Positions 1-33,725 of a stretch of 35,185 nucleotides of DNA are shown one piece after another (positions within the stretch are counted from its first letter, which is position 1; each line of letters starts with the position of its first letter). The stretch spans positions 1 to 35,185 of the IMG/VR virus record IMGVR_UViG_3300011115_000594; one strand, written 5' to 3'. Source of the stretch: a virus. The notes under the pieces were generated by a model. It ran no database searches and was not told the origin of the DNA. It was given only the letters and a program-made list of their open reading frames with translations. The translations under genes were made by a program, and so were the position numbers.

Positions 1-800
1 TTCTGCTCCTCGGACTGCTCGCGGGTCATGCGGGTCTTCGCGCCGGGGCGGGAGGCGCGTGAACGGTCAGCCTCAAGGTCTTGTCCGACCATCTCCGCGA
101 GTTCGTGCAGGCTGACATCCTTGCCTGCTGGCGTAATGTCGGCAAGACGCATGGCTTCAGTAGCGAGCGCGTCAAGCTTCTTGGCGTTGTTGTAACTGCC
201 GGGGGTCGTCTCAAGGAGGCGGTAAACATCCTCGGCGCGTCCGAACGCTGCCTTCGCGCCGGGGCGGGACATCCGTGAACGGGCAGACTCATATGCGCTT
301 TTAACTTGCGACTCCATTTTGAGCCACTTAGCCGCCCGCATCAGCCCGTCCATTTCATCTTTGGTGATGTTCGACATTGCACCCATTTTCTCAGCAAGAA
401 CAATAACGTTCTTCTGAGCAAGGTCTGGTTGCTGCATGATCTGAAAATCAAGAAACTTGAATTCTGTATCAAAGCGACCAAACCTTGCCTTCGCGCCCGG
501 GCGGGAGGACAGGGTCTTAAACGGCGTTTGCTGTTGGTACTTGACTACCTTAGAAATTTGAACATTGACATCCTTGGCTCTTGGGTTGCTTTTCTTCAAA
601 GCCTCAAGCATTTGCTTCCCGTAATGCTCTGCTTCAGCTTGGGTATCAAACGTCCTATTTCCCAAGATGGAGTTGTCAACGTATCCGCTAATTACAAAGT
701 AATTGCCCTCGCTGCCCTCAAACGACACTTTTGCGTTGTTGCCAGCAGCAAATCCAAGACGGGCGGCGATTTCCTTGCGTGTGTTGCTCATGTCGTGCAT
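1..800 (-). CDS. RPGAKA-linked modular protein, left copy (3' end cut by window)
   Basis: This is the left-copy version of the gene at 33005-33700; the reading frame stays open to the window edge. The start is the ATG at 800, with GGAG a few bases upstream; a second ATG lies at 791. The N-terminus carries the RLGFAAG tag. The protein then runs through an alpha/beta module, an RPGAKA linker (DNA repeat 489-506), an extra mainly helical module of 79 residues absent from the right copy, a second linker (252-269), the helical module with AEDVYRLLE, and a third linker (36-53). The extra module is in frame and has no stop codon. It lies between the terminase-portal-MuF genes and the head genes. Function is unknown; a virion-associated or head-packaged role is inferred only from position. 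Confidence 0.8.
   Translation of the reverse strand, partial: MHDMSNTRKEIAARLGFAAGNNAKVSFEGSEGNYFVISGYVDNSILGNRTFDTQAEAEHYGKQMLEALKKSNPRAKDVNVQISKVVKYQQQTPFKTLSSRPGAKARFGRFDTEFKFLDFQIMQQPDLAQKNVIVLAEKMGAMSNITKDEMDGLMRAAKWLKMESQVKSAYESARSRMSRPGAKAAFGRAEDVYRLLETTPGSYNNAKKLDALATEAMRLADITPAGKDVSLHELAEMVGQDLEADRSRASRPGAKTRMTREQSEEQ
36..506 (-). repeat. Three copies of 18-bp linker repeat (36-53, 252-269, 489-506)
   Basis: On the + strand the repeat reads CTTCGCGCCGGGGCGGGA, with one substitution in the third copy. Read on the - strand in frame it encodes SRPGAKA. The second and third copies lie exactly 237 bp apart, which equals the length difference from the right-hand copy of this gene. Confidence 0.9.
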
Positions 801-825
801 CTTAGCGATCTCCATTGCGATTTAT

Positions 826-1908
826 TTATGCGTTTACGAAACCGGGGTCAGGAACTTGGCGCGTGTCCACTAAGCGCTGACGCGCCCCGTTGTGCTTGGC
901 GATAGCGGCTGGGTCAATCGTCCCGTTCGGGCGCGTCCAACGCTCGCGCATGGCCTCGGCGGCGGGGACGGGAATAATCGCGCACCGACAATTAAACCCA
1001 AGCGGCGGGGCGATTCCAAGGCGGTCGAAGTCTGCCATCGTCCCAACGTAGCCGTCAAAGGCGCGGTGCGTGTCCCGTGTGCGCGGGTCTTTGGTGGCGC
1101 TGAATTGCACCAGCGGGACGAACGCCTGTACCCGCTCATCGCGTAGGACTTCGGCGCTTCCCTCGGTCATAGCGCGGTTGGTGTTCGTCCGCAGGACGGT
1201 TTCAAGGCGAGAAGCCGTTAACCCCGTCCCGGTCATCATTTGGGCGGTAGTCACGAAGTCGCCGAGGTTCATGGTCTTGATGAGCTTGCCGACCACGCTC
1301 TTGGTGGGGCGCTCCTCGATGACCTGCGCGATCAGTTCCTGCACCATCCGCGCCTGTGCGACAGGCATGGCGGTCACAAAGAAGGTGGTATCGACGATCC
1401 GCTTGACCCGGGAAATAGCCCCTTGCGGCCCTCGTGTAACACCGCGTAACAACGAGTCGAGGATCGGGGACTGCTTGCGGAGGTCAGGAAGGGCGTTTTC
1501 GCGCTCGTGATCGGTAACATCCCCGGCGCTGGCGGCTGCTGCCTTGACGAGCAAATCCCAGTCGGCGCGGGTGATCGGGACGCGCTTCCTGAACCAGCCC
1601 GTGATCGGAGCCATCCACTTCGTCCCAAAGCCCTCAAGGGAAATCGGCACGTCCCGGTCAAACTTGACCGCGTCCCCATCGTCGAGCATTCCTTCGATTG
1701 CCCCGTCTGGGATGTTGGCGGTGTCTACCGTGTCACGCGCTCCGAATAACCACGATGCCATCAGGAGCGCCGCAGTCGCCTCGTGGAACTCCGCCCACGC
1801 GGGAAGGGGATCTTCGCCCCGGATCTGAGCCGCGACCGCCCTGCGGTACGCCTGCTGCGACTGGCGCAGAACCTTGCGGAGGTGCTTATCGAGGTCGGCT
1901 TTGGTCAT
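826..1908 (-). CDS. MuF-type phage head morphogenesis protein (minor capsid), left copy
   Basis: The 360-residue product matches the Mu gp30 / SPP1 gp7 'MuF' family of minor head proteins, which sit at the portal inside the procapsid. The diagnostic C-terminal half is visible: a helix with LRTNTNRAMTEGS, then DPRTRDTHRAFDG, then PPLGFNCRC near residue 320. The family residues Thr-Arg, His and the Cys-Arg-Cys end are all present. The start ATG at 1908 overlaps the portal stop (ATGA), so the two are translationally coupled, as is usual for portal-MuF pairs. A second copy at 33726-34808 differs by one residue (Asn65 versus Lys), although the DNA differs at many silent sites. Confidence 0.9.
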   Translation of the reverse strand: MTKADLDKHLRKVLRQSQQAYRRAVAAQIRGEDPLPAWAEFHEATAALLMASWLFGARDTVDTANIPDGAIEGMLDDGDAVKFDRDVPISLEGFGTKWMAPITGWFRKRVPITRADWDLLVKAAAASAGDVTDHERENALPDLRKQSPILDSLLRGVTRGPQGAISRVKRIVDTTFFVTAMPVAQARMVQELIAQVIEERPTKSVVGKLIKTMNLGDFVTTAQMMTGTGLTASRLETVLRTNTNRAMTEGSAEVLRDERVQAFVPLVQFSATKDPRTRDTHRAFDGYVGTMADFDRLGIAPPLGFNCRCAIIPVPAAEAMRERWTRPNGTIDPAAIAKHNGARQRLVDTRQVPDPGFVNA

Positions 1909-3398
1909 CGCTTACGCTTGCGGACGGCGGCTACCTTCGGTGCTTCAGGGGCTGGCTCATCGCCCTCGCTCTCGTTTCCTTGCCCAAGCATGGCGGAGAG
2001 CGGGTTCGACGATGCGCCCGCGCTGCCTGCGGCTTGACCACCGAGGACGGATTCCCCGTCTTCCGGGTCGGACAGCCCGAGGAGGTCGCGCACTTCGCGC
2101 TCGCTGACGCGGCCACCCATTTGGATGAACGTCTGAATCGCTTCCAACCGCTCCTTGGGGTTCGGGCGCTCCGGGGCGAAGACGAACCGAATGCGGCGTG
2201 CGTCCTCTTCGGAGGCTCCGAGCATCCCGGCAATGATGCGGACGAGGTCGGTAGTTAGGCTCTCCGCGAGGCAATCCGCGTGGTAACGGATTACGCGAGA
2301 AAGGGTATCGGCGTGGAGATCGGCAACGCCTGATCCCATACCCGTCCCGCCAGCCTCGCTAGAGAGTGACTGACCGAGGATTGCTTCCTTCAGTTTCCCG
2401 GAAAGCCAATTCACCAGCTCCATGAAGATTTGGGCGCGGCCACCGTTCGCGTCCTTGATGTCGATGTCGTACATGGACTCGGTTGGACTGATGCGCGGCA
2501 GGACGACCGAGTTGTCATTGACCAAGTTTTGCAAGATGGTCATCATCTCGCTTTTGGCTGCATCGTTCCCGGCTGGGTAGTACCCAACGCGGATGCCGAG
2601 GGCATACCGCTCCACATACGCGGCGGCGTTCTGTAGGACTTCCTGCTTCAGGAGCCAGATGTACCAGCAGACATCACGCGCACCAACGCCACGGTAAACC
2701 GTCTCGGCGCTGTTTGGGTCGATGAAGTTCGGCGCGGTGGTAAAGACGCGGTGCAGGACAATGGCGCGGCGTTCGTTGTCGTCGAACAGGTGGACGAGCG
2801 AGTCGAAGCCAAGGTCGGTGACGGAGGCTTGATTGATGTAGGCGGAACCAACGCGCATCGCCACGTTCCCGGTCTGGTCAAAGGCGAGGGTATCGGAGGC
2901 GAGCGGGAGCCATTCGCGGATGCGTACCCCAAGGCGCGGGTCGCGGTCGTAGACCACGTTGACGGCGCTGCACCCGTACCAGACGGCTTCGTGCAGGGAG
3001 CGGAACATATCGCTACGGCGCGGGGCTGCGCCGATGATCTCAGCAATGCGCTCAGCGAGCTTGACAAGTCGCGGGTCTGATTCGTCGTCGGAAAGGACGT
3101 TCCACTCCAACCCGGCAAGGGTCACAAGCAGGGAGCGCAGTACGCCCTCAATGTCCGCGTCCGCGCGCATCATCGCCTGATAGTTTGGGTCGAGGCGGTA
3201 GGCGAGGCTGGAGTTCCGCAGCATCAGGCTAGCGGTACGGAAGAACGTCCGCTGCACTTCCACGGGCATGGCAAGCGGCCCGGTTAACCCGCGATCAATC
3301 GGAGGCGGCAGCGGCTTGCGCGGTCGCTTGGTTGGTGGCAAGCCTGCGCCGGGGATCGACTGACGTTGCGAGAGCGGGTTGTTGATCGGGTCGGGCAT
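1905..3398 (-). CDS. Portal protein (DUF935 / Mu gp29-like)
   Basis: The 497-residue product has the features of Mu gp29-type portals: an N-terminal part with LRNSSLAYRLDPNYQAMMRAD, the 'LEWNVLSDDESDP' segment, and the conserved AILGQSLSSEAGGTG stretch followed by HADTLSRVIRYHADCLAESL. The C-terminal tail (FAPERPNPKERLEAI... GLSDPEDGE) is also typical. Portals form the dodecameric DNA channel at one capsid vertex and dock the terminase. The gene starts at 3398, overlapping the stop of the 80-residue gene upstream, and its end overlaps the MuF start. The 3' part is repeated at 34805-35185. Confidence 0.9.
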   Translation of the reverse strand: MPDPINNPLSQRQSIPGAGLPPTKRPRKPLPPPIDRGLTGPLAMPVEVQRTFFRTASLMLRNSSLAYRLDPNYQAMMRADADIEGVLRSLLVTLAGLEWNVLSDDESDPRLVKLAERIAEIIGAAPRRSDMFRSLHEAVWYGCSAVNVVYDRDPRLGVRIREWLPLASDTLAFDQTGNVAMRVGSAYINQASVTDLGFDSLVHLFDDNERRAIVLHRVFTTAPNFIDPNSAETVYRGVGARDVCWYIWLLKQEVLQNAAAYVERYALGIRVGYYPAGNDAAKSEMMTILQNLVNDNSVVLPRISPTESMYDIDIKDANGGRAQIFMELVNWLSGKLKEAILGQSLSSEAGGTGMGSGVADLHADTLSRVIRYHADCLAESLTTDLVRIIAGMLGASEEDARRIRFVFAPERPNPKERLEAIQTFIQMGGRVSEREVRDLLGLSDPEDGESVLGGQAAGSAGASSNPLSAMLGQGNESEGDEPAPEAPKVAAVRKRKR

Positions 3399-3640
3399 CA
3401 GGATTTCTCGTATGCAAGGGCTTTGATCTGGTCTACCGTCATGCGCTTAGAAACGCCGTTCGGCTGTTTCACTTCGTAGGACGTAGCAAAGGCTGGCGGG
3501 TTGGTCTGCCCGCTGCGGAAGTCAAGCGTATACCCGCGCTGCTTGAGCGCCGCTTCGGCTTGGTCGATGGTCAGCTTGCGCTTGCTTGTCGGCAGGGCAA
3601 AGATGCCCAGTCGGCGCATGATCGCCTTGCGCTGGCTCAC
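3398..3640 (-). CDS. Small basic protein with RLG-tag-like N-terminus, unknown function
   Basis: An 80-residue product that begins MSQRKAIMRRLGIFAL, resembling the (R)RLGFAA tag of its neighbours, then forms one compact module (LTIDQAEAALKQRGYTLDFRS ... YEVKQPNGVSKRMTVDQIKALA). The GTG start at 3640 overlaps the stop of the modular gene upstream (GTGA), and the stop overlaps the portal start. It therefore looks like a single-module member of the modular family encoded as a separate chain. No catalytic motif was recognised. Confidence 0.7.
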   Translation of the reverse strand: MSQRKAIMRRLGIFALPTSKRKLTIDQAEAALKQRGYTLDFRSGQTNPPAFATSYEVKQPNGVSKRMTVDQIKALAYEKS

Positions 3641-4893
3641 GCCTTTGCCTTCGCGCCGGGGCGGGAAAAGCCGCTGGTATCAAGCGCCTTGATTGCGGCA
3701 CGCTTTGCGCGATCTTCCGTTGAGTACGAGCGCATCGTGCCGAGCATATCTTCTTCTTTGCCGATGCCTGTTTCGATGCGCTGCACAACGTATGCGTACC
3801 AAGTTCCCGTTGCGTCGCGGGAAATCATCGCGGACTTGTTGCCCTTGCGACCGACTTCCGTAGCAAACTTCGCCTTCGCGCCGGGGCGAGCGAAGCCCTT
3901 GTATGGCTTGGACAGATCCAAGATTTGAACCCGGAACGAATGCCAGCCCGCTGCGGCTGCACGCTTCTTGACATCTTCCATCTGGGCAGGAGTCTTAGCT
4001 TGCGTTGAGAGAACCTGCTGGTGAATGGCATCAGTCTCGCCCTTCGGCAACCCCCAAAGCACATATTCCTTTTCAAACTTCGCCTTCACGCCGGGGCGGG
4101 CAAACGGAACTACCTTGGCGGTAAGTACTTTTTCCGGCGTACCACTTGTTCCCTTATACCAACCCTTTTTAATCATGGTATCGGCCCATTTACGAGCAGC
4201 CGATTCTGTAGCAAAGGCAAGAGTTTCATCAATTTCCATAGCGTTGTTGGAATCAGTTTTTCCCAATTGCTTGGTGTAACGCACTTGCCATTTGTACCCA
4301 GCAGCGCGTTGGCGGTCTTCAAAACTTGCCGCCATCTTCGCCTTCGCGCCCGGGCGGGAAGACTTGGCTTTCTTGAGCGGTGGCAATTTCTCGTTCATTG
4401 CGTTTGACGCGGCCGCCGCTTCTTGGAACGAGCGGTAGGTCTTTGCGCTAACGGGCTTTCCGGTTCGATTCGACTTTACCGTGTATGCACCCTTGCCATT
4501 GTCATCTGCAAAGGTGGCGCGGTCATCATTTTCTGGGTAGTAGTAGATGTACTGGGCATCTTTCTTGACAATGATGTCAGAGGCGGCCATCTTCGCCTTC
4601 GCGCCGGGTCGGGAGGCAAGAACTAAATCAGAATCCTGAGCGTCTTGCGGGCCTCCGCCTTGAGTATAAACGACATAAGAGGGATACCCATATTTATCAC
4701 GCATAAGCCGCTTGATCGTTCCTTGAAATGACGGATGGCGCTTATCTTTGACTTGGTCACCAACCTTGTACCGATGCGTTCCTTGCGGGTTGGCTTCATA
4801 TGGCAAGTCAGTAATGCCGGGGATGGAAGCCATCTCCGCCTTCACGCCTTGCGCCGCGAATCCCAAACGCTTCTCAATGTCTTGCTTGCTCAT
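3637..4893 (-). CDS. Five-module RPGAKAKF-linked protein, unknown function
   Basis: A 418-residue product. The ATG at 4893 is chosen because it overlaps the upstream stop (ATGA) and follows AAGGAAC. It starts MSKQDIEKRLGFAAQGVKAEMAS, itself a degenerate form of the linker. RPGAKAK or RPGVKAK linkers fall near residues 94, 179, 265, 335 and 410, and the protein ends just after the last one. Between them lie five unrelated-looking domains of about 50-80 residues. The first resembles an SH3/KOW-like barrel (YKVGDQVKDKRHPSFQGTI). The second, third and fifth share a beta-rich part followed by a helix rich in Ala (SFQEAAAAS, ATESAARKWA, STEDRAKRAAIKAL). No enzyme motif is visible. Position beside terminase and portal suggests a head-associated role; this is inference. 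Confidence 0.8.
   Translation of the reverse strand: MSKQDIEKRLGFAAQGVKAEMASIPGITDLPYEANPQGTHRYKVGDQVKDKRHPSFQGTIKRLMRDKYGYPSYVVYTQGGGPQDAQDSDLVLASRPGAKAKMAASDIIVKKDAQYIYYYPENDDRATFADDNGKGAYTVKSNRTGKPVSAKTYRSFQEAAAASNAMNEKLPPLKKAKSSRPGAKAKMAASFEDRQRAAGYKWQVRYTKQLGKTDSNNAMEIDETLAFATESAARKWADTMIKKGWYKGTSGTPEKVLTAKVVPFARPGVKAKFEKEYVLWGLPKGETDAIHQQVLSTQAKTPAQMEDVKKRAAAAGWHSFRVQILDLSKPYKGFARPGAKAKFATEVGRKGNKSAMISRDATGTWYAYVVQRIETGIGKEEDMLGTMRSYSTEDRAKRAAIKALDTSGFSRPGAKAKA
3649..4614 (-). repeat. Five copies of 18-bp linker repeat in the modular gene
   Basis: Copies of CTTCGCGCCGGGGCGGGA (+ strand) lie at 3649-3666, 3874-3891, 4084-4101, 4342-4359 and 4597-4614, each with zero to a few substitutions and all in the same reading frame. 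A more degenerate sixth copy at 4840-4857 encodes the N-terminal AAQGVKAE segment. The spacers are unrelated to one another in sequence, so the repeats stand out as conserved joints between variable inserts. Confidence 0.9.
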
Positions 4894-5279
4894 GTGGTTC
4901 CTTTGTTCTTGCCGTGATTCTCGCCTTTGCAACTACAGTCGCAAGCAGGCCCAGCCGCGTTCCTGCACTTTGCTCCGCAGGTCGTTGGCTTGTTGGTTGG
5001 TGTGTACATCACGAAACGCGTGATCTCTCGCGGCGTGCCGCTAACGAATCCAACCCAGTAGAGTCGGTCGTCCTTGATGGGTTGCAATTTGTTGAAGTCG
5101 TAACTCCATCCGACCCGTGCGTCTGGGAAGAGCTTGCGGAATTCTGTCCCGCTTACCCGCTTCCGGTCGTTTGCGCCGAGCTTGCTGAGTCCCGCGTAAT
5201 ACTGCGGCTCCGGTGCGCCACGCCATGCGGCTGCAAATCCAAGACGGCGTTCGATGTCGTTTCGGCACATGGAACGCAT
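4890..5279 (-). CDS. Small protein with RLGFAA tag and cysteine-rich tail
   Basis: A 129-residue product (ATG 5279; an in-frame ATG at 5270 would give MCRNDIERRLGFAA). It carries the same N-terminal tag as the modular proteins. The middle part (VSGTEFRKLFPDARVGWSYDF ... DRLYWVGFVSGTPREITRF) is unrecognised. The end, CGAKCRNAAGPACDCSCKG followed by ENHG, has a C-x3-C-x7-C-x-C-x-C spacing that suggests a small metal-binding knuckle; similar CDCSCGG-NHG endings occur, from memory, in other phage proteins. It sits 9 bp after the large terminase gene and is coupled by ATGA to the five-module gene. Confidence 0.7.
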   Translation of the reverse strand: MRSMCRNDIERRLGFAAAWRGAPEPQYYAGLSKLGANDRKRVSGTEFRKLFPDARVGWSYDFNKLQPIKDDRLYWVGFVSGTPREITRFVMYTPTNKPTTCGAKCRNAAGPACDCSCKGENHGKNKGTT

Positions 5280-5288
5280 CGTAGCGAT

Positions 5289-6755
5289 TCAGCCGAACAT
5301 TCTGCGCTTGACTGCGCGAGAATCAAACATCCTGCTCGTGTCGGTCGCTACCGTGACCGCGCCGCCTGAGGTCACCACCGTCCCGCTTGACGCTGCCGTG
5401 CAGAGGTCAACAACGCAGTCCACCGTATCGTCGTGACTGCCAGCGGGGAAGGCGAGCATTTCGTCAAGGGTTGAGCGGAAGTCGGCGTGTACCTGCCCGT
5501 CATGGTTCTGCGGGAACAAGAGCTTCCCCTGCTCAACGAACGGCTGGGCGGCGGCGGCTCGCAAATGCTTGTCGGCGGTGCGGGTGACGGCAACTACGGG
5601 CTGGTGGCAGTCGGCGCGGAATTGGTCGAATACGCCCTTCTGCGGCCCGTTCGCTTCCGCCAGCACCATGCCTACGCCACGACGTTCAACAAGGTCTTTC
5701 GCCATGCGGGCGAAGTCCGGGAAGGACTCGCGGACGCGGAGGATGTCGGTCAGGTACAGGTTGCGGGCTTGATCGACTTCCCCAACGATGCAGACCGAGT
5801 AATCGGGGTCGTCGCGCTCTTGGCGCTTCTTTCCGTAGCCCCAGTCGATGGCGGCAACCGTGCGCGTACCAAGAGGAATCGTCCCGGCGCGGTAGTAGCG
5901 CGTCCACTCGGGTCGGAAGATCAGGAGGTCGGAGGAGAGCGGGACGAGTTCGTAGGCTCGTGCGTATGCCATCGGCCCCATCTCGCGGCGCTTCTGCTCA
6001 AGGATCTCAGGGGTGAAGACGCTCGGCCACGGGCTGATGAGTCCCCGGCATGGCTGGCGCAGGAGCGTGCCTGCGCGTTCGCATTCCCTGCGCCAGTCCG
6101 CCGTTATGTCGTCGGTATGGAAGGGGGTCGCCGTGCGCCAAATACGAGCGGGGTGCTTGGCGGATGGGTCAAGCATGGGGAGCCAGATGTTGTTCATCGC
6201 CTCCTTGACCTGTGCGCGGAGGGTCGGCTGGAGGACGGCGTTGCGTAGGTCGCAGATGTCATCCGGCCAAAGAACGTCGGCGCGTCCGCCCGTTCTGCCG
6301 AAGATTCCAGAGGCTTGGACGGAGGGGTCACGCCTCGCCCCTACCCCGGGCGCGGTGATTGACCACGCCATGACGGTGTCCTCCCCGGGCTTGAGTTCAA
6401 CGTGCGGGAAGGTAGCGCGGTAGATGGGGCTACGGATGATGTCGCGCAGGAAGCGGGAGGTTGCGGACGCGGCTTCGTCGTTTTGCCCGATCAGCTTGAA
6501 GCGCGTTGCTGGGCGGCGACCGAGCCACCACGCGGCAAGGTAGGTGAGGGTCGAGGTCTTGGCGTGTCCTCGGGGTAGTTCGGCGTACCAACTATGGTGC
6601 TTCAGCCCATGCGCGAGCAGGCCGCGCTGAAGGTCGGAGACGGGCTTTCCGAGGCACAAGGCAAGAAACGCCGCCGGGTTCTCCCGCGCTGCGGCGACCG
6701 CCTGCTCCGGGGTCAGGCTTTGCGCTTTGGTTTTCGCTTTGGCTTTGGGAGGCAC
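5289..6755 (-). CDS. Terminase large subunit
   Basis: The 488-residue motor and nuclease that packages DNA into the procapsid. Visible motifs are a Walker A-like LPRGHAKTS (residues 60-68), Walker B VLWPDD (161-166), and the C-terminal RNase H-like nuclease with AIDWGYG (acidic residue D304), AEANG near 367-370 and HDD at 441-443. Length is normal for the family. The start overlaps the end of the upstream small-terminase candidate by 43 bases, a common arrangement. The Ala in place of Gly inside the Walker A loop (GHAKT versus GHGKT) is a mild variation that should still bind ATP. Confidence 0.93.
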   Translation of the reverse strand: MPPKAKAKTKAQSLTPEQAVAAARENPAAFLALCLGKPVSDLQRGLLAHGLKHHSWYAELPRGHAKTSTLTYLAAWWLGRRPATRFKLIGQNDEAASATSRFLRDIIRSPIYRATFPHVELKPGEDTVMAWSITAPGVGARRDPSVQASGIFGRTGGRADVLWPDDICDLRNAVLQPTLRAQVKEAMNNIWLPMLDPSAKHPARIWRTATPFHTDDITADWRRECERAGTLLRQPCRGLISPWPSVFTPEILEQKRREMGPMAYARAYELVPLSSDLLIFRPEWTRYYRAGTIPLGTRTVAAIDWGYGKKRQERDDPDYSVCIVGEVDQARNLYLTDILRVRESFPDFARMAKDLVERRGVGMVLAEANGPQKGVFDQFRADCHQPVVAVTRTADKHLRAAAAQPFVEQGKLLFPQNHDGQVHADFRSTLDEMLAFPAGSHDDTVDCVVDLCTAASSGTVVTSGGAVTVATDTSRMFDSRAVKRRMFG

Positions 6756-10097: not shown

Positions 10098-10438
10098 GAG
10101 ACTCAAAGAAGATCAAATTCAAGGAAACCGAGTACGAAATCAACGTCGACCAGTTGCCGGGAATCCCCGAGGTGATTGCTGAGTACCTGATGTCCCACGC
10201 CGTGACCGTGCATATTGAGGGTCGCTACCAAGTTGATGGCGGCAACCCGGACGCAGGCGACCAGCCAGCATGGCGGCTGCTTGATTGGAAGATCATGGCT
10301 GTAGCCCTTGACGGGCAGGTCTTCGACAACAACAACCCCGTCCCGTCTGAGTTCCCGATGGCGCTCGTCATTAACTCCACCTACTCGCGCCACACGCGGG
10401 AGTACCTTGAGGCGCGGCCGCCGGAAATGTACGAATGA
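10094..10438 (+). CDS. Unknown early protein
   Basis: A 114-residue product (MRDSKKIKFKETEYEINVDQLPGIPEVIAEYL...), acidic, with mixed alpha/beta pattern. It is coupled by ATGA overlaps both to the winged-helix-like gene before it and the methyltransferase after it. No family or catalytic motif was recognised. Confidence 0.65.
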   Translation: MRDSKKIKFKETEYEINVDQLPGIPEVIAEYLMSHAVTVHIEGRYQVDGGNPDAGDQPAWRLLDWKIMAVALDGQVFDNNNPVPSEFPMALVINSTYSRHTREYLEARPPEMYE

Positions 10439-11736
10439 AATACCTATCCGTCTGTTCAGGCATCGAAGCCGCGACCGTTGCATGGCATCCCCTTGGCTGG
10501 GAGCCTGCCGGATTCTCGGAGATTGAACCCTTCCCAAGCGCGGTTCTTGCGCATCATTACCCTCACGTCCCCAATTTCGGAGACATGACCAAATTTCAGG
10601 AGTGGTTTTTAGATGCAGGAGCAATTGACCTTTTGGTGGGAGGAACCCCATGCCAGTCCTTCAGCGTTGCCGGGCTTCGACAAGGACTCAAAGACCCACG
10701 CGGAAACCTCATGCTTACCTACCTTGCGATTGCTGCACGTCTTCGGCCTCGATGGGTTGTGTGGGAAAACGTCCCCGGTGTCTTGTCATCAAACGGAGGA
10801 CGGGATTTTGGTTCCTTCCTCGGCGGGCTGGGGCAGTTGGGGTATGGGTTCGCGTACCGAGTGTTGGACGCTCAATGGTGCAGAACACACGGGCATCCCC
10901 GTGCCGTCCCGCAACGCCGAAGACGTGTCTTCGTTGTCGGATGTCTTGGAGACGCAACCGCTGCCGCAAAGGTATTGTTTGAGCGCGAAAGCGTGCTTAG
11001 GAATTCTAAAACGCGCGGAGCGGCGCGGGAAGAAATTACCGCAGATGTTGAGGGACGCGTTGGAGCAGGCTGCTGGTGGGATGGAGAAAGCACCTCCCAC
11101 ACCCTGACTAAATGCGGAGCCAACGGGGCGCAGCGGATGCCAGACAAAGACAACTTCGGCGCGGTGTTGCAGCCGTTTGATAAACAACAAAACGGTGCAT
11201 ATGGCATAGGCAAAGTTGGTAGCACTCGTTTAGCGCGAGAATACAAGGACGCTACCGACCTTGTTGCCGTCCCGTACACCAAAGCCAAACGCGCCCAGTC
11301 TGACACCGATGACGAGACATGGGTGGAGGGGCAAGTTAACCCCACGCTCTCGCTGTTCGACTGCGGGGACGTGCGGGCAACGACCGTTGCCATTCAAGCT
11401 TATTCAATCCGCGAAGATGCCAATGCGAACAACTTTAGCGCCACGCCGACCGATGTGGGACTGACGGTGTCCGCGCTTGTCCCCGGCGTGCAGTCGCACC
11501 ATGCTCAATTATTTATGGCGCAAGCCATGACCGTGCGCCGATTAACAGTCAGGGAATGCGAGCGTTTACAGGCGTTTCCCGACGACTACACGCTCATTCC
11601 TTGGCGCAAGAAGGCGGCTAGCGACTGCCCGGATGGGCCGAGGTACAAGGCGCTAGGGAACAGCATGGCCGTGAATTGCATGGAATGGATCGGAGAACGC
11701 ATTGCCGCCGTTGAGGCGGAGAAAGAAACGACATGA
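10435..11736 (+). CDS. C5-cytosine DNA methyltransferase
   Basis: A 433-residue, apparently complete Dcm-type enzyme that transfers a methyl group from S-adenosylmethionine to C5 of cytosine. Motif I is LSVCSGIEAA (residues 4-13), motif IV GTPCQSFS (70-77, catalytic C73), motif VI ENVPG (111-115), motif VIII QRRRRVFVVG (160-169). Motif IX (RRLTVRECERLQAFPDDY) and motif X (YKALGNSMAVNCMEWIGERI) close the fold. The stretch between about residues 180 and 370 is the target-recognition region; the target sequence cannot be read from it. No cognate restriction gene is present, so protection of phage DNA from host restriction is the likely role. A second ORF overlaps it at 10613-11107. Confidence 0.95.
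   Translation: MKYLSVCSGIEAATVAWHPLGWEPAGFSEIEPFPSAVLAHHYPHVPNFGDMTKFQEWFLDAGAIDLLVGGTPCQSFSVAGLRQGLKDPRGNLMLTYLAIAARLRPRWVVWENVPGVLSSNGGRDFGSFLGGLGQLGYGFAYRVLDAQWCRTHGHPRAVPQRRRRVFVVGCLGDATAAAKVLFERESVLRNSKTRGAAREEITADVEGRVGAGCWWDGESTSHTLTKCGANGAQRMPDKDNFGAVLQPFDKQQNGAYGIGKVGSTRLAREYKDATDLVAVPYTKAKRAQSDTDDETWVEGQVNPTLSLFDCGDVRATTVAIQAYSIREDANANNFSATPTDVGLTVSALVPGVQSHHAQLFMAQAMTVRRLTVRECERLQAFPDDYTLIPWRKKAASDCPDGPRYKALGNSMAVNCMEWIGERIAAVEAEKETT
10613..11107 (+). CDS. Overlapping alternate-frame ORF inside the methyltransferase gene
   Basis: A 164-residue ORF in another frame of the methyltransferase gene, with its own ATG and a CAGGAG 10 bases upstream. It begins MQEQLTFWWEEPHASPSALP, contains CGKTSPVSCHQTEDG, GMGSRTECWTLNG and SLSDVLE, and ends in a plausible helical segment (CLSAKACLGILKRAERRGKK then LPQMLRDALEQA). 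From memory, phage proteins with this same motif series are repeatedly annotated beside or over C5-methyltransferases. Recurrence could come partly from conserved methyltransferase codons read in another frame, so expression is unproven. The dedicated ribosome binding site and well-formed C-terminal helix favour a real gene. Confidence 0.5.
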   Translation: MQEQLTFWWEEPHASPSALPGFDKDSKTHAETSCLPTLRLLHVFGLDGLCGKTSPVSCHQTEDGILVPSSAGWGSWGMGSRTECWTLNGAEHTGIPVPSRNAEDVSSLSDVLETQPLPQRYCLSAKACLGILKRAERRGKKLPQMLRDALEQAAGGMEKAPPTP

Positions 11737-13534: not shown

Positions 13535-14305
13535 ATGCAACGAAGTAACACCATCGGGGAACTAGCGAAGGCGCTAGCGGCCGCAAACTTGGAAATCGTG
13601 AACCCCAGCCTTGACGCGGTCAACCCGCATTTCAGGTCGCGCTACGCCAGCCTCGGCGCGATCATCAACGCCGTCCGCCTGCCGCTTGCCCGTCATGGGA
13701 TCAGCGCCGTGCAGACGGTCAGCACCGACGGCGGGGCGGTCGGAGTAACGACCACCTTGCTGCACGCGAGCGGGGAATGGATGGCGGAGACGGCTATGTC
13801 CGCCCTGCCCGACCGCGCTACGGTTCAGCAGCTGGGTTCAATAATTACTTACCTTCGCAGGTACTGCTTAGCCTCGGTGACCAACATAGTCGGGGAAGAA
13901 GACCAAGACGGGAACGAGGCAAGCCTGCCAAGCGCACCGCGCACAGAGCCTCGTAAGCCTTTCAAGCCGCAAGACCCACGGACAGCCGTCCCGCCGCCGC
14001 CGACCGCTCCCAAGGCAACCAAGCCCGCTCCTGAGCCTGTGGCGGAAGTCAAGGCAATGGACGCGTACCCGGACGTGTACGAGGGTACGTTCGACATCTT
14101 GCGCGTCGTTGTCCGCGCTGGCAAGCCCTACGCGATTCAGGTGGACGGCAAGCACGGCAAGGCGTGGATCGCTACCACCGTGCAGGAGTACGCCGACCTC
14201 GCTAAGGAACACGTCAACGACTGTATGCAGTTGCAGGTCGAACGCGTCGGCGACTCGCTTCAGATCATGAAGGTGATCGCATCGAAAGTTGAGGTTCCGT
14301 TTTGA
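13535..14305 (+). CDS. Erf-family single-strand annealing protein
   Basis: A 256-residue product. The N-terminal 130 residues match the ERF family: a lead helix (TIGELAKALAAANLEI), NPHFRSRYASLGAIINAVR, LARHGISAVQTV, VGVTTTLLHASGEW and the QQLGSIITYLRRYCLASV segment ending in VGEEDQDGNEA. Erf proteins anneal complementary strands in phage recombination and genome circularisation. A proline-rich linker follows, then a C-terminal beta-rich domain (YEGTFDILRVVVRAGKPYAI ... CMQLQVERVGDSLQIMKVI) that may be an OB-like nucleic-acid-binding fold. The next gene starts inside its stop codon. Confidence 0.9.
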   Translation: MQRSNTIGELAKALAAANLEIVNPSLDAVNPHFRSRYASLGAIINAVRLPLARHGISAVQTVSTDGGAVGVTTTLLHASGEWMAETAMSALPDRATVQQLGSIITYLRRYCLASVTNIVGEEDQDGNEASLPSAPRTEPRKPFKPQDPRTAVPPPPTAPKATKPAPEPVAEVKAMDAYPDVYEGTFDILRVVVRAGKPYAIQVDGKHGKAWIATTVQEYADLAKEHVNDCMQLQVERVGDSLQIMKVIASKVEVPF

Positions 14306-14811: not shown

Positions 14812-15246
14812 TTACTTTGCCTCTCCCTCGCCGTTGCCTTCGGGTGGCGGCGAGGTTTCTTTTTGCCCGAATGGGATCAGGCGATTGAGCGCCTCGCGCC
14901 GCTTCGCGCACGGGCCGCAAGAACCCGCCTTGATGCCAACCGCGTTGGTCATCGCCGCAACCACGTCACCCAGCCCACGCATCCGAGGGGGCGCAACCGT
15001 CCCCGGCGCTGGCGGCTGCATTTCGGTCGTCAGCTTGGCGCGGGCGGCGACAGGGGCAGGGCGTGCGCCAAGGAAGAGGGGCGGGTCAATGATGTTGCCT
15101 TCCCGCGTCTCGCGCTCCTCGCAGGTCGCACACTTGGTGACGTCAAGGTTCTTGAGGCAGAGGGGCGACGTGCCAGCGACGCGCCACGACTTGCAATCCA
15201 TGATCGGGAGCGAGATGCCGGAGACGTTGAGCGTGCCGATGGTCAT
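14812..15246 (-). CDS. Cysteine-pair protein at the end of the leftward unit
   Basis: A 144-residue product. The N-terminal half has CLKNLDVTKCATCEERE; the C-terminal half has GLGDVVAAMTNAVGIKAGSC then GPCAKRREALNRLIPFG. Cys pairs spaced CxxC suggest a small metal-binding or disulfide-bonded fold. The GLGD...T.AVGIK..C..C..R...LN segment recurs, from memory, in other phage late genes. The start overlaps the stop of the cysteine-rich 614-residue gene (ATGA), so the two are probably made together. Confidence 0.65.
   Translation of the reverse strand: MTIGTLNVSGISLPIMDCKSWRVAGTSPLCLKNLDVTKCATCEERETREGNIIDPPLFLGARPAPVAARAKLTTEMQPPAPGTVAPPRMRGLGDVVAAMTNAVGIKAGSCGPCAKRREALNRLIPFGQKETSPPPEGNGEGEAK
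14826..14864 (+). terminator. Intrinsic terminator of the rightward unit
   Basis: CCTCGCCG (14826-14833) pairs perfectly with CGGCGAGG (14848-14855), with a possible inner GCC-ttcg-GGT, and is followed by TTTCTTTTT (14856-14864). It works only on the + strand and lies inside the 3' end of the opposing gene 14812-15246, because the two units meet with no spacer. Confidence 0.85.
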
Positions 15247-17087
15247 GATGTGAGGGCGACGATTGAGCCGTCAGACTTGCAGTAGATACGGGGCGCTTGG
15301 AATGAATGCACGCAGGGCTGCGGCAGGGGATGGTCGATATCCCATTGCCCACCGGGCGAGCAGTCTGCTCCCTGTGGACAGCATGGCGCGACTTGATAGG
15401 TAAATGGGTAGGCGTAGCAGCCCGTGCGCGGGTCGGGCATCCCCGGGCAAAGCGAAGTCCAACCGTAGACAAGGACGATGTCGGTTCCGCCGATGTTGAC
15501 GATGATGTCTTCCAACGGCCACCCATCGCGAGCTTCGCAGTTGGTAGCGTCTTGGTAGAAGCCGATGTCCACGCAGATCGGGATAGTGCCGTTCCCGTAC
15601 TCCTGCACGCGCTTCATGCTGTACCGCTCTCCGAACGAATATTCGGGGAAGGACAGGCATTGGATGACGTAGTTGTTCGGGGTTGCGGTGATCGCCGAAA
15701 TGGACGCGTTGCAAGTATTCTCGCTCGTCATCCGCCACGGGTAATCAACGAGCAGGGTCTGCGAGGCGCAGGCGTAGTACCGAGGGGATGAGGCAACGAG
15801 CGTGACCGTAATGGTGGTATTTGAATCCGTGAACGCCACGCGGTCAACCGTCAGGGTATCGCCATCGGAATGCCCGGGGCGGTCGTTTGCGGTCTGCCAG
15901 TCGCACAGTACGCAGGACTGGCGATTACCAAACCAGAACCACGCCGACCACGGCGGAATGCCGTGCGCCGTCACTAGCGCACCGATACGCGTGTTGATGC
16001 GCTCGGCAATGTGCGCGGCGTTGCCGCTGAAGATGACAATGTCAAGACCGCAGACAGTCAGCTTGGGCGCTCCAAGCGTTCCCCAGCCCGTAGCGACCGT
16101 GTTGTTTGGGTCGATGTGAACAAGACCCGACGAGCCAAGGAAGAGGGCATTGAGCGCCGCCTGAGCGTTTGGGTCTTCGGGATCAATCCCCGGCGCAAAG
16201 CAGGCCGGGAAGACAATGGTCATGATGTCTTCGTCATGGGACGGGCAACCAAACCCTCCGAGCGAATAGCACGTCCGCACGTCATACGTCTCAAAGCGAT
16301 CCTCGAAACTATCGCAGTATTCCGCGTAGTCGTCGCAGATCGGGGTATTGCCACAGCAATCCCCCTGCGGCTCGCAGTCCGGGCAGGCCATGTACTGGAC
16401 GTAATGCTGCGTAACTTGGTTCGGGCAGTTGGCGGGGCTGACGGGGTCACGGACGGTGCAGAAGCCCATCTCCTGCGACATACCCACGTCAAGGCTCACG
16501 ATCTCGACTGGCGGCCCGTGATCGCAACGGACATCCCACGGCACGCCAATCGTCTCAATGCAGGTGCGAGCGGAGCTTGCAATGGTGACGCTCTTCCCTT
16601 TGACCGTTCCAGCCTGATCCTTGAAGTCGTAGCACTCGGCTACCAATTCCTCGCAAGGGAGTTGCGTGTTGTTCGCAATGGCAGGGCCGTACTCAGGGAT
16701 TTGGATGTTCGCAATGCCGCCCGGGTTACCTTGTTGCTGGGGATCAGGGTAACAACATGGGTCGCCTTGAAGGGCGCGGTTCTTGACCTTGACCAATTCG
16801 CCTACGTTGACAGGCCATATCGACAACGGATTCGGGCATGGCAATGCCTCAAAATTGGTCAAGACGTAGATGCAGCAGTCATACGAGATGTAGTAGCACT
16901 TGTTCGCAATGTCTGGCGGGTCGGGGATACCCAGCGAAATCAAATAGCCGACGCAGAACTCAATGCGGTCAGGCGCTTGCTCGCAATCAGGGGCGCAGCA
17001 ATAGTTGGCGAAATAGTCCGTGCATTTGAGGGCGTACCACAACACGCCACCTGTGCAGCAACACGAAACCGCCGGGAGTGCGCTCAC
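15243..17087 (-). CDS. Very cysteine-rich large protein, unknown (possible tail/receptor protein)
   Basis: A 614-residue product with more than 40 cysteines spread along its length, many as CC, CxC or CxxC. The GTG at 17087 (VSALPAVSCCCTGGV) is chosen because it overlaps the stop of a 14-codon micro-ORF (GTGA); an upstream in-frame ATG at 17192 would add 35 residues that read like shadow coding. The rest is rich in Asp, Pro, Tyr and Gly, with beta-like segments (TLTVDRVAFTDSNTTITVTL), as in extracellular or virion surface proteins. No signal peptide or catalytic motif was recognised. It lies after the spike and lysis-like genes, so an extracellular or virion role is inferred. Confidence 0.7.
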   Translation of the reverse strand: MSALPAVSCCCTGGVLWYALKCTDYFANYCCAPDCEQAPDRIEFCVGYLISLGIPDPPDIANKCYYISYDCCIYVLTNFEALPCPNPLSIWPVNVGELVKVKNRALQGDPCCYPDPQQQGNPGGIANIQIPEYGPAIANNTQLPCEELVAECYDFKDQAGTVKGKSVTIASSARTCIETIGVPWDVRCDHGPPVEIVSLDVGMSQEMGFCTVRDPVSPANCPNQVTQHYVQYMACPDCEPQGDCCGNTPICDDYAEYCDSFEDRFETYDVRTCYSLGGFGCPSHDEDIMTIVFPACFAPGIDPEDPNAQAALNALFLGSSGLVHIDPNNTVATGWGTLGAPKLTVCGLDIVIFSGNAAHIAERINTRIGALVTAHGIPPWSAWFWFGNRQSCVLCDWQTANDRPGHSDGDTLTVDRVAFTDSNTTITVTLVASSPRYYACASQTLLVDYPWRMTSENTCNASISAITATPNNYVIQCLSFPEYSFGERYSMKRVQEYGNGTIPICVDIGFYQDATNCEARDGWPLEDIIVNIGGTDIVLVYGWTSLCPGMPDPRTGCYAYPFTYQVAPCCPQGADCSPGGQWDIDHPLPQPCVHSFQAPRIYCKSDGSIVALTS

Positions 17088-17128
17088 GCGACGATGACAA
17101 TGCAGAGAGCGAGGATGAACAGCCGCAT
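17084..17128 (-). CDS. 14-residue hydrophobic micro-ORF
   Basis: ATG 17128 opens a 14-codon frame, MRLFILALCIVIVA, ending at 17084. It overlaps the upstream stop as TGATG and the downstream GTG start as GTGA, so it links two genes by termination-reinitiation. The peptide is almost wholly hydrophobic. It may be a real membrane peptide of the lysis cluster or only a coupling device. Confidence 0.4.
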   Translation of the reverse strand: MRLFILALCIVIVA

Positions 17129-17241
17129 CACTTGCCAGCCTTCTTGGTGGCGAGATACCAACCTGCGCCGAACGAAATGGCAGCTGCGGCAAGGGCGAAC
17201 CAAAGACTACCGAGGAAACTTGAGAGGTCGGCGAGGATCAT
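17128..17241 (-). CDS. 37-residue single-span membrane protein (holin-like)
   Basis: MILADLSSFLGSLWFALAAA, then AISFGAGWYLATKKAGK, starts at ATG 17241 with AAAGG upstream and lies 2 bp after the lipoprotein gene. It has one clear membrane span and a short basic tail, like small holins or holin-associated peptides. Function is inferred from the neighbouring lipoprotein and coiled-coil membrane protein. Confidence 0.55.
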   Translation of the reverse strand: MILADLSSFLGSLWFALAAAAISFGAGWYLATKKAGK

Positions 17242-17243
17242 GT

Positions 17244-17735
17244 TTATGCCTTTCGTCGTGTCTGGGCTTTTCTGAATGCGGCATCAAACATCGGGTCTTG
17301 TGCGCGCATTGCTGCAATGTACTCCCGATCCCCTTCGGGTCGGTTGGGGTCTAGCATATCGACCGCAAGCTCGGCTGCAACTACTTTCCGGCGAGGAAGC
17401 CAGCCAATAGCGACCCGTATCGCCGTCCCTAGCCCAGTCTGCCACAGGACGATGACGAGCGCGACCGCGACCACGGCGACCGCCCCGTAGGTCAGCATGG
17501 TCATCCATGCCGGGGTCTTGTCCTCTACCCCGGACAGTTGGACGTGAATCCCAGACGCGAGCTCCTCAATACGAGTAGCCCGGGCAACGACCTCCGGATC
17601 TCCGGTTTCCGTCCCGCGCTGAATCAACCATTGAGCCTCGGCGCGGATGTCGTTGGAGGACTGCGCGATCCTCTGCACGGGGCTACAGCCCGCGAGGAGG
17701 ACGAGCATGGCGATCATGAGCCACCAGCGACTCAA
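17244..17735 (-). CDS. Lipoprotein with C-proximal membrane span, spanin-like
   Basis: A 163-residue product from TTG 17735 (coupled to the upstream stop) or 157 from ATG 17717. The N-terminus has a lipoprotein signal ending in a lipobox, LMIAMLVLLAGCSPVQ. A helical periplasmic stretch of about 60 residues follows (SNDIRAEAQWLIQRGTETGD...), then a second membrane span (MLTYGAVAVVAVALVIVLW) and a basic cytoplasmic tail. Lipobox plus later membrane span is the layout of unimolecular spanins, which link the two membranes and finish lysis of Gram-negative hosts; the tail here is longer than usual. Confidence 0.6.
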   Translation of the reverse strand: MSRWWLMIAMLVLLAGCSPVQRIAQSSNDIRAEAQWLIQRGTETGDPEVVARATRIEELASGIHVQLSGVEDKTPAWMTMLTYGAVAVVAVALVIVLWQTGLGTAIRVAIGWLPRRKVVAAELAVDMLDPNRPEGDREYIAAMRAQDPMFDAAFRKAQTRRKA

Positions 17736-29624: not shown

Positions 29625-30236
29625 TTAGCCCTTCATCCGGGCGTTGATTGCCTTGGCAAACTCTTCAGGCTTGCCAGCAAATTGCTTGACGAGTGAGCCA
29701 ACGTCACCAATGTCCATGCCACGCGGCAGGGCTGCTCGGCTCATATCAATCTTGGTTCCGATTGGGTCGCGGGCGAACAGGTCGCGCCATGACTCAAGGA
29801 GAGCAACTGGGTTACGGGAAGCCTGCAACTGACCAACAAGCGCCTCGCGCTGTGAGTCTGGGATGCGGTAGCCCTCCTGCTCCATGATCTCCACTTCGCG
29901 CTCAAACTTCTCGCGCTTCAACTCGGCTTCAAGTCGAGCGAACCGCGACTTGAGGCGAGCGTTTTCCGACCGCAAGGCGTAGGTCGAGCGACGGCTGGCA
30001 ACGACTGATTCGTCTTCCATCTCGTCCTCTTCTTCGCCCGCTTCGATGTCGATGTGGACTTGACCTTCGGACTCTTCATCCTCAGCCATCTTGTCCTTTT
30101 CTTCCTCGTCGTCCGCAGCCATCTCGTCCTTATCGTCCGAGTCGTCCGCGAACTTCTTCTTCATCATGTCCGAGAGTTCGGAGATGGCGCACTTCATGGC
30201 CTCCAACTCCTCGCGCATATCGTCGCTGGATGCCAT
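29625..30236 (-). CDS. Internal in-frame start: scaffold protein alone
   Basis: ATG 30236 (MASSDDMREELEAMKCAISE) lies five bases after AAGGAGGAGG (30242-30251), one of the best ribosome binding sites in the window, inside the protease gene. The 203-residue product would be the acidic, coiled-coil scaffold without the protease. Lambda C/Nu3 and Mu I/Z use the same nested arrangement to make many scaffolds per protease. Confidence 0.72.
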   Translation of the reverse strand: MASSDDMREELEAMKCAISELSDMMKKKFADDSDDKDEMAADDEEEKDKMAEDEESEGQVHIDIEAGEEEDEMEDESVVASRRSTYALRSENARLKSRFARLEAELKREKFEREVEIMEQEGYRIPDSQREALVGQLQASRNPVALLESWRDLFARDPIGTKIDMSRAALPRGMDIGDVGSLVKQFAGKPEEFAKAINARMKG

Positions 30237-31118
30237 GCTGGCCTCCTCCTTGGTAGTCGTCGGGACAAAGGTATTGAGTCCGCCACCAGCCCCGACGAGG
30301 TCATGGTTGGACTTTGAACAAGTGATCTTCTCGCCCTTGCGGGTGAAATGGGTATCCGGGAGGGGACGGCGCGGGGTTTCACGCCCGAGCAGCGCCACCT
30401 CGGAGAGGTGATTTGAGCCTGACCAGATCTCAGCCGACCGACGCGGGAAGGCGTTGGTAGCAATGAAGCGGTCGAAAATATCGCGGTTCACTTCCATGTC
30501 GCCCACAATGTACCCAATTCCATCGCGTTCTTCGTAGGAAATTGTGGGGAATCGACCGACAGCGGACTTCGGTTCCTTGCCGTCCTTCTCGTGCATGATG
30601 ACGAGGCGAGGGAACGAGCCACGAGCCATGTGCTTGCGCGTACTAGCGACGATGTCCTTGAGGCGCTTGTTGTTGAAACGCTTTAGCTCCGGGTCAGCCT
30701 CGCCATCGTCGATGGCTGGGTCAAACGCCATGAACAATTCAACGCGCTCAATCATGACTTTGTCGCCGTCTTCGGCAACGGTGTGGGATGTCTTTCCGTT
30801 CACAGTCTTCTCCTCTTTGCGGTCTAGTTCTTTATCCTTGCGCTCCGCCCACGCCTTGCCCGCATCGCCGCCCCATAGGAGCCACGCTATATAGCCAGCG
30901 GAATCTTTGCCCCAGCCTTCGCCCTGCTTGTCCACCTCGTGCCGAGCGAAGTAGGACACCATGCGGCGCACGGTTTCGGGTGACAGGTTCGCCCGGTTCT
31001 TGATGTCACGCGCCCGCGCCACGCCGATTTCCGTGCCACCGCGACCATGCTTTTCCCGCAGCTCAAGGCCACGCGCAGCATTGGATGCCATTTCGGTGGT
31101 TGGCTTTAGGTCGATCAT
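29625..31118 (-). CDS. Head maturation protease fused to scaffold
   Basis: A 497-residue product. Residues 1-105 form a separate N-terminal domain (KHGRGGTEIGVARARDIKNR, SPETVRRMVSYFARHEVDKQ, DSAGYIAWLLWGGDAGKAW), often found attached to phage proteases. About 110-270 is the Mu gpI-like protease region (IERVELFMAFDPAIDDGEAD, ARGSFPRLVIMHEKDGKEPK, DMEVNRDIFDRF, RRSAEIWSG, LSEVALLGRETP). The rest is a highly acidic, then coiled-coil scaffold (YALRSENARLKSRFARLEAE) ending FAKAINARMKG. An internal start at 30236 can make the scaffold alone. The gene starts within the upstream stop (TAATG). Confidence 0.82.
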   Translation of the reverse strand: MIDLKPTTEMASNAARGLELREKHGRGGTEIGVARARDIKNRANLSPETVRRMVSYFARHEVDKQGEGWGKDSAGYIAWLLWGGDAGKAWAERKDKELDRKEEKTVNGKTSHTVAEDGDKVMIERVELFMAFDPAIDDGEADPELKRFNNKRLKDIVASTRKHMARGSFPRLVIMHEKDGKEPKSAVGRFPTISYEERDGIGYIVGDMEVNRDIFDRFIATNAFPRRSAEIWSGSNHLSEVALLGRETPRRPLPDTHFTRKGEKITCSKSNHDLVGAGGGLNTFVPTTTKEEASMASSDDMREELEAMKCAISELSDMMKKKFADDSDDKDEMAADDEEEKDKMAEDEESEGQVHIDIEAGEEEDEMEDESVVASRRSTYALRSENARLKSRFARLEAELKREKFEREVEIMEQEGYRIPDSQREALVGQLQASRNPVALLESWRDLFARDPIGTKIDMSRAALPRGMDIGDVGSLVKQFAGKPEEFAKAINARMKG

Positions 31119-33004: not shown

Positions 33005-33700
33005 TTACAATTCTCCTCTGCGCTTCATGTCGAGCGCGATTGCGACCGCTTGGTCTTGTGGCTTGCCTTCTTTGATGAGCTTGGCGATCTTCGCGCCGAC
33101 GGCTGGGTCAGCGGCGGACATGATCTTCAGCCCTGCCTTCTGCTCCTCGGACTGCTCGCGGGTCATGCGGGTCTTCGCGCCGGGGCGGGAGGCGCGTGAA
33201 CGGTCAGCCTCAAGGTCTTGTCCGACCATCTCCGCGAGTTCGTGCAGGCTGACATCCTTGCCTGTTGGCGTAATGTCGGCAAGGCGCATGGCTTCAGTAG
33301 CAAGCGCATCGCGCTTCTTGGCGTTGTTGTAACTGCCGGGGGTCGTCTCAAGGAGGCGGTAAACGTCTTCGGCGCGTCCGAATGATGCCTTCGCGCCGGG
33401 GCGGGAGGACAGGGTCTTAAACGGCGTTTGCTGTTGGTACTTGACTACCTTAGAAATTTGAACATTAACATCCTTGGCTCTTGGGTTGCTTTTCTTCAAA
33501 GTCTCAAGCATTTGCTTCCCGTAATGCTCTGCTTCAGCTTGGGTATCAAACGTCCTATTTCCCAAGATGGAATTGTCAACGTATCCGCTAATTACAAAGT
33601 AATTGCCCTCGCTGCCCTCAAACGACACTTTTGCGTTGTTGCCAGCAGCAAATCCAAGACGGGCGACGATTTCCTTGCGTGTGTTGCTCATGTCGTGCAT
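33005..33700 (-). CDS. RPGAKA-linked modular protein, right copy (complete)
   Basis: A 231-residue product from ATG 33700 (GGGAG upstream; alternative ATG 33691). It begins MSNTRKEIVARLGFAAG after three residues. Modules: an alpha/beta one to about residue 98 (GNYFVISGYVDNSILGNRTF, DTQAEAEHYGKQMLETLKKS), linker SRPGAKA (99-105), a helical one (AEDVYRLLETTPGSYNNAKK to about 170), linker SRPGAKT (171-177) and a C-terminal helical one with AKIAKLIKEGKPQDQAVAIA, a motif seen in small phage and bacterial proteins (DUF6496-like). The left copy carries one more module. It sits between MuF and a structural gene. Function unknown. Confidence 0.8.
   Translation of the reverse strand: MHDMSNTRKEIVARLGFAAGNNAKVSFEGSEGNYFVISGYVDNSILGNRTFDTQAEAEHYGKQMLETLKKSNPRAKDVNVQISKVVKYQQQTPFKTLSSRPGAKASFGRAEDVYRLLETTPGSYNNAKKRDALATEAMRLADITPTGKDVSLHELAEMVGQDLEADRSRASRPGAKTRMTREQSEEQKAGLKIMSAADPAVGAKIAKLIKEGKPQDQAVAIALDMKRRGEL
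33173..33407 (-). repeat. Two copies of 18-bp linker repeat (33173-33190, 33390-33407)
   Basis: Both are exact CTTCGCGCCGGGGCGGGA on the + strand. The second sits where the left copy has two repeats (252-269 and 489-506) flanking the extra module, as expected if one recombination event between repeats removed or added it. Confidence 0.9.
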
Positions 33701-33725
33701 CGTAGCGATCTCCCTTGCGATTTAT

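Follow-up and report, generated by a model that had tools for sequence, protein, structure and literature searches.

Near the left end of the IMG/VR virus record IMGVR_UViG_3300011115_000594 (35,185 bp, classed as linear; analysed at its full length and referred to below as the window) a minus-strand gene, here designated gene B, contains a unit of 237 bp which is missing from a second version of the gene near the right end. The question raised by this locus is how a whole protein domain has come to be present in one version and absent from the other. In a preliminary description, made from the sequence letters, it was taken as domain exchange within one window by recombination between the 18-bp repeats bordering the unit, with the Erf annealing protein of the same phage as a possible agent. 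The analysis reported here indicates that the unit is probably one cassette of a larger module-shuffling system, which occupies two slots in the head gene cluster (gene A and gene B), recombines at a protein linker and would supply proteins that are loaded into the phage head.

Domain mosaicism of phage proteins and recombination through short homology are known already. A literature search, of incomplete coverage, returned no earlier description of the linker sequence or of linker-based shuffling in phage proteins. Within that coverage the seemingly undescribed elements are a universal in-frame linker frozen as DNA, two fixed slots in the head cluster and a repertoire of more than 150 modules. 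Absent from the preliminary description were the arrangement in two slots, the freezing of the linker at synonymous sites, the tag at the N-terminus and the link with head assembly.

Results

The 237-bp unit and its bordering linkers

Comparison of positions 1-800 with 33005-33700 revealed only one large difference, of 237 bp, and the flanks align on both sides with approximately 95% identity. The repeats bordering the extra block begin at 252 and at 489, a distance of exactly 237 bp, and agree at 17 of 18 bases (CTTCGCGCCGGGGCGGGA / CTTCGCGCCCGGGCGGGA). The reading frame is kept without a stop, both gene B frames being open, and the unit corresponds to a whole domain between linker repeats, composed of 71 module residues and 8 linker residues. 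In all these respects the preliminary description was accurate. The short allele combines the discriminating base of the 252 copy with the right-hand flank of the 489 copy, which places the junction within the final 8 bp of the repeat (262-269, equivalent to 499-506). Read on the minus strand, CTTCGCGCCGGGGCGGGA encodes SRPGAK. Allowing up to three mismatches, the 18-mer occurs 11 times in the window (0.09 expected from shuffled sequence), and ten of these matches are in-frame minus-strand linkers, confined to gene A and gene B.

Contig ends as alleles of one locus

The similarity between the two ends of the window (1-2285 and 33138-35185) amounts to approximately 95% on both sides of the single 237-bp indel and extends to both contig termini. 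Between the two versions of the neighbouring MuF-like gene there are 57 substitutions, of which 55 are at third codon positions; since they give only one amino-acid change, they represent real alleles and not sequencing noise. A genome truly carrying tandem copies of gene B, MuF and portal, in which paralogues came to differ by loss or gain of the 237 bp, would account for the presence of both copies on one contig with open frames, yet it is very improbable: the similarity reaches both contig ends, 18 other long relatives have a single MuF gene, and in the relatives G004 and G001, collinear with the window only when the window is taken as a circle, both window ends map to one and the same place. 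G004 moreover has overlapping ends of its own (168 bp, 97.6% identical), which do not coincide in genome position with those of the window. Duplication of the head block in tandem was ruled out as a candidate, the relatives being single-copy circles.

Given the overlapping ends and the single-copy relatives, the contig ends are therefore two strain alleles of one locus. On sequence evidence the contig is a circular or circularly permuted genome of about 33 kb whose ends come from two coexisting strains, and two alleles are seen in the window because the assembler joined the two strains at the contig ends. The exchange proposed in the preliminary description stands as gain or loss of a whole module, and as shuffling; its placing within one window does not, the difference being one between coexisting strains. 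The short form is also found in the loci L007-L009 (98% identity), and L014 has the long form, in which this module again precedes the same neighbour, at a spacing of 237 bp.

A family of linker-joined modular proteins

Viral contigs were scanned with a degenerate code for SRPGAKA, in which third codon positions were left free except for Lys, and at least 119 stretches were found; a protein search gave 87 relatives, and 80 loci were kept. Modules were split by a position-weight model. The 151 open reading frames (ORFs) obtained contain 571 linkers and 419 internal modules (median 77 amino acids), which fall into about 155 families, many of them singletons. The proteins are chains of small domains, up to ten modules long, joined by SRPGAKA linkers. 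With the exception of one unplaced match they occupy two slots, A between the terminase and portal genes and B after the MuF-like gene. The linker protein was not found in the collection of isolated phages, and only one module resembles a gene of an isolated phage, the free-standing 68-amino-acid gene of Rhodobacter phage RcPutin. Searches of bacterial genomes with the linker DNA gave 41 single matches, none with a second linker motif nearby, and hence no prophage or host copy was found.

Of the internal modules, 196 have Met and 209 have Phe as the residue following the linker (position +8, all loci), and both residues are used in 15 of the 43 families with three or more members; the Met may derive from the start codons that the genes had before their capture. 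A short module, CW.GYEAVG.K..DGK.VPNCVP, lies inside or ends the linker proteins of L109, L149 and L171.

Module shuffling between relatives

Sixty-three of the 68 module families found in at least two ORFs vary in position, and for 19 module pairs both orders were seen. The locus L007 is a clear case: its core DNA is 95-97% identical to that of the window and it carries the four gene A modules of the window (97-100% identical) rearranged to m2 ... m1 ... m4 m3. When members with portal identity of 92-99.5% were compared within the same slot, 68% (A) and 51% (B) of the pairs had no module family in common and 0-2% had an identical module set, figures which are approximate as some ORFs are truncated and the pairs are not independent. 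Over half of the families (34/62) are present in both slots. Some modules are identical over approximately 200 nt between phages whose portals are only 68% identical, and therefore single modules cross between distant members. These comparisons establish that modules are gained, lost, reordered and moved between slots and between distant phages. The comparison of relatives, as proposed in the preliminary description, shows different modules between the linkers, and the similarity begins and ends within the linker DNA.

Breakpoints at the linker

Junctions shared on one side only were examined in 235 + 226 pairs, covering 47 and 49 module families. Nucleotide identity is approximately 0.95 in the shared module and the linker and approximately 0.28 just beyond. 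Because the modules had been cut at linkers, BLAST alignment ends were also scored blind to the linker; 44% of the 5' and 57% of the 3' internal ends fall at a linker vs approximately 16% expected. Both the identity profile and the ends of the high-scoring segment pairs place the breakpoints in stretches of nucleotide identity. Recombination at the linkers is well supported by these data.

Conservation of the linker as DNA

Among 322 SRPGAK linkers, 262 (81%) are the exact 18-mer TCC CGC CCC GGC GCG AAG (TCCCGCCCCGGCGCGAAG), for which 0.3% would be expected from the codon use of the ORFs themselves. The relatives form 24 portal groups with a median between-group nucleotide identity of 70%; across these groups the consensus is kept at 0.83-0.97 per linker codon, and for invariant Ser, Arg, Pro, Gly and Ala residues of the portal the consensus codon averages 0.56-0.64. 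The linker, approximately 20 bp of conserved DNA, is accordingly preserved beyond the demands of its amino acids. Selection for recombination homology would account for this, as would crossovers that continually copy one version of the linker, and both may be at work.

The linker is GC-rich, as an RNA hairpin or a biased codon set might be, but its predicted folding energy is typical of synonymous versions (48% are equally or more stable), and codon bias is no explanation because the linker ORFs prefer codons other than TCC for Ser and CCC for Pro; an origin of the synonymous conservation in either is hardly credible. Selection on the linker peptide itself, for example as a cleavage site freeing small proteins, with the frozen DNA as a by-product of crossovers, deserves more attention, although we regard it as somewhat unlikely. 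The peptide is nearly invariant, the modules resemble small free-standing phage proteins (by predicted fold, and in one case by sequence), and a scaffold-protease-like gene is present; on the other hand, for the codons to be frozen in every one of the 24 portal groups there must be exchange from group to group, and this is indeed seen. Such selection is compatible with linker-based module shuffling and not opposed to it.

Candidate mechanism of exchange

The Erf protein noted in the preliminary description is indeed encoded by the phage (PF04404, E 1.3e-19). Erf was found in 14 and RecT in 2 of the 19 long records (window included), so that a protein of the Erf/RecT/Redbeta type is encoded in 16 of 19. 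Proteins of these types recombine via short identity (PMC3945230). During replication of co-infecting strains Erf (RecT in some relatives) or host recombination would join linkers through their short identity, and any linker-to-linker crossover would preserve the reading frame. Annealing at the linkers, with a role for Erf, is plausible. The relaxed recombination by Rad52-like enzymes is similar in that Erf, Redbeta and RecT types drive mosaic exchange through short identity (PMC3945230); there, however, homology is whatever the genomes share, whereas here it is a repeated in-frame 20-bp linker, which allows reordering as well as replacement. The domain mosaicism described for phage proteins (PMC10684548) likewise involves ongoing sharing of fragments between otherwise unrelated proteins, but the joints in the present family are one universal linker in genes at fixed slots of the head cluster.

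Integron cassette arrays and shufflons consist of interchangeable units with a short conserved flanking DNA site and combinatorial order. The family described here resembles them in its swappable units, conserved short site and combinatorial order, and differs from them in that no recombinase gene was found, the sites lie inside one ORF and the unit is a protein domain. A dedicated site-specific recombinase of the shufflon or integron style, acting on the linker, would agree with a short DNA motif that is conserved synonymously in all groups and contains the breakpoints exactly; a variant of this is that a host or unrecognised enzyme may act at the linker. We consider such a recombinase improbable, since the 19 long records contain no tyrosine recombinase (PF00589) and no serine recombinase (PF00239) over the cut-off, and all linkers are in-frame direct repeats, as protein coding demands. 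Reverse transcriptase (PF00078), the mark of diversity-generating retroelements, is likewise absent from all 19 records.

Predicted head loading of the modular proteins

The tag MS..R.EI..RLG starts 116 of the 143 linker ORFs with a complete N-terminus, a phrog_2859-type domain is present in 27, and one or the other in 127. The tag is also carried by the linker-free neighbours of gene A (Table 1) and by other small proteins of the relatives. The phrog_2859-type domain forms the N-terminus of the scaffold-like protein of the window and, in other members, of modular proteins. Vibrio phages have it at the start of a coiled-coil protein encoded just ahead of the major capsid gene, and roseophages and cyanophage S-CBS1 at the start of the ORF annotated as capsid protein. 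Nearly all linker proteins (147/148) are basic, with a median charge of +22.5. Structure models of modest confidence (mean predicted local distance difference test scores of 53 and 50) consist of separate small domains and poorly ordered linkers. No confident fold match was obtained with them; several model segments resemble small uncharacterised phage proteins, no match having an E value below 0.001.

The internal proteins IPI-IPIII of T4 are small and basic, share a short N-terminal capsid targeting sequence and vary between related phages (PMC9026906), and three T4 internal proteins inhibit type IV restriction enzymes after injection (PMC12373910). Both cases concern tailed phages with a short common N-terminal sequence on unrelated basic proteins, encoded by variable genes. 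The T4 proteins are single small products of separate genes with a propeptide of 10-19 residues; those described here have one tag before a chain of up to ten shuffled modules with a DNA-conserved linker. By analogy, the N-terminal tag (in some members the scaffold-like N-terminal domain) would load the basic proteins into the prohead, and the loaded proteins would travel in the particle and perhaps be ejected along with the DNA, serving as variable proteins directed at the host and comparable with the T4 internal proteins. We infer head targeting by the tag from the features shared with T4, the common N-terminal sequence and the basic character. Loading of the gene A and gene B products, and their probable ejection, form the weakest step of the explanation.

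The modules might instead be structural or DNA-condensing parts of the head, of which the identity hardly matters, so that their turnover would be neutral. The basic character of the proteins and a module content that varies almost without limit are consistent with this, but we find it unlikely, given that shared modules are under purifying selection (identity of approximately 0.97/0.99/0.88 at codon positions 1/2/3 in the junction pairs) and that many are discrete predicted folds.

MuF polymorphic toxins were also considered, and the window contains no fusion of toxin and MuF. Its MuF protein has PF04233 only and ends shortly after this domain, and its modular genes stand apart from it as ORFs that lack a MuF domain. 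The conserved GFN/CRC site of the MuF-like head gene is interrupted in L021 (8065-9972), and also in L017 and L034, by approximately 276 in-frame residues. The insertion has motifs resembling those of inteins (ANHPILT, and VVSN ahead of Cys at the C-terminal end) and matches Intein_splicing and PT-HINT of Pfam weakly, below the cut-off.

Other features of the window

The coordinates of the linkers, the modular genes and the surrounding genes are collected in Table 1. The middle region of the scaffold-like protein looks protease-scaffold-like by eye, and the protein also has an acidic coil; a Pfam scan of this protein gave no match. The early region encodes a C5 cytosine-specific DNA methylase (10435-11736; PF00145, E 8e-47). 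Two long ORFs overlap on opposite strands, 15243-17192 (-) and 16011-17354 (+), and a Pfam scan of the former was without a match.

Table 1 Features of the modular system and neighbouring genes in the window
Feature	Position	Strand	Remarks
Contig end	1..2285	.	overlaps 33138-35185; wrap-around of circular or permuted genome
Gene B, long allele	3..800	-	tag + bb-a-b domain, module, module; C-terminal end cut off by contig start
SRPGAK linker, third of long allele	36..53	-	
237-bp unit	252..488	-	SRPGAK linker 252-269 + module 270-488; absent from 33005-33700 allele
SRPGAK linker, other module border	489..506	-	
MuF-like head protein	826..1908	-	PF04233; second allele 33726-34808
Portal protein	1905..3398	-	PF06074; second, partial allele 34805-35185
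Linker-free protein with same N-terminal RLG tag (VSQRKAIMRRLGIFA)	3398..3640	-	
Gene A, second modular gene	3637..4893	-	418 amino acids, five linkers, between terminase and portal
Gene A linker	3649..3666	-	
Gene A linker	3874..3891	-	
Gene A linker	4084..4101	-	
Gene A linker	4342..4359	-	
Gene A linker	4597..4614	-	
Linker-free protein with same N-terminal RLG tag (MCRNDIERRLGFAA)	4890..5279	-	
Large terminase subunit	5289..6755	-	
Erf single-strand annealing protein	13535..14305	+	PF04404; candidate agent of linker recombination
Scaffold-like (possibly protease) protein	29625..31118	-	N-terminal domain phrog_2859
Gene B, short allele	33005..33700	-	complete, 231 amino acids; phrog_2423 C-terminal motif at end
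Other contig end	33138..35185	.	second strain's version of 1-2285
SRPGAK linker ahead of C-terminal part of short allele	33173..33190	-	
SRPGAK linker, short-allele junction	33389..33406	-	

Discussion

Several results weigh against the explanation of the 237-bp unit as a cassette of head-loaded, linker-shuffled proteins. The junction pairs are not independent of one another, though the effect is large, and module splitting made use of the linker itself. Three long relatives have no Erf, RecT or Rad52 by the models tried. The minimal pairing segment reported for Redbeta is 23-27 bp and that for RecA 31-34 bp (PMC3945230), and the linker DNA is slightly under the former; with a linker at or just below the minimal segment, recombination may therefore be rare and selection strong. 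Head loading and ejection are deduced from the position of the genes, the tag, the shared domain and the charge. When 149 module representatives were scanned against Pfam, PHROGs and PADLOC, no informative function emerged, and sequence searches of the PDB with the modules gave nothing informative.

A further-reaching reading, which we put forward tentatively as a fair prospect short of an expectation, is that this lineage has evolved a dedicated, DNA-conserved linker for in-frame recombination, with which it assembles two head-loaded proteins as combinatorial arrays of small host-directed effectors from a shared metagenomic pool, each strain injecting a different set.

Conclusions

The system looks like a means by which an uncultured group of phages rapidly diversifies proteins probably contained in the head. 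If this is true, it would be the protein-domain counterpart of the integron, in which more than 150 small domains are re-dealt in two genes faster than the core genes diverge by a few per cent, and it would provide a natural test of how short homology shapes evolvability. It would also offer a large catalogue of uncharacterised small phage proteins, which may act on host defences, together with a ready rule, to cut at SRPGAKA, by which the modules could be isolated and screened.
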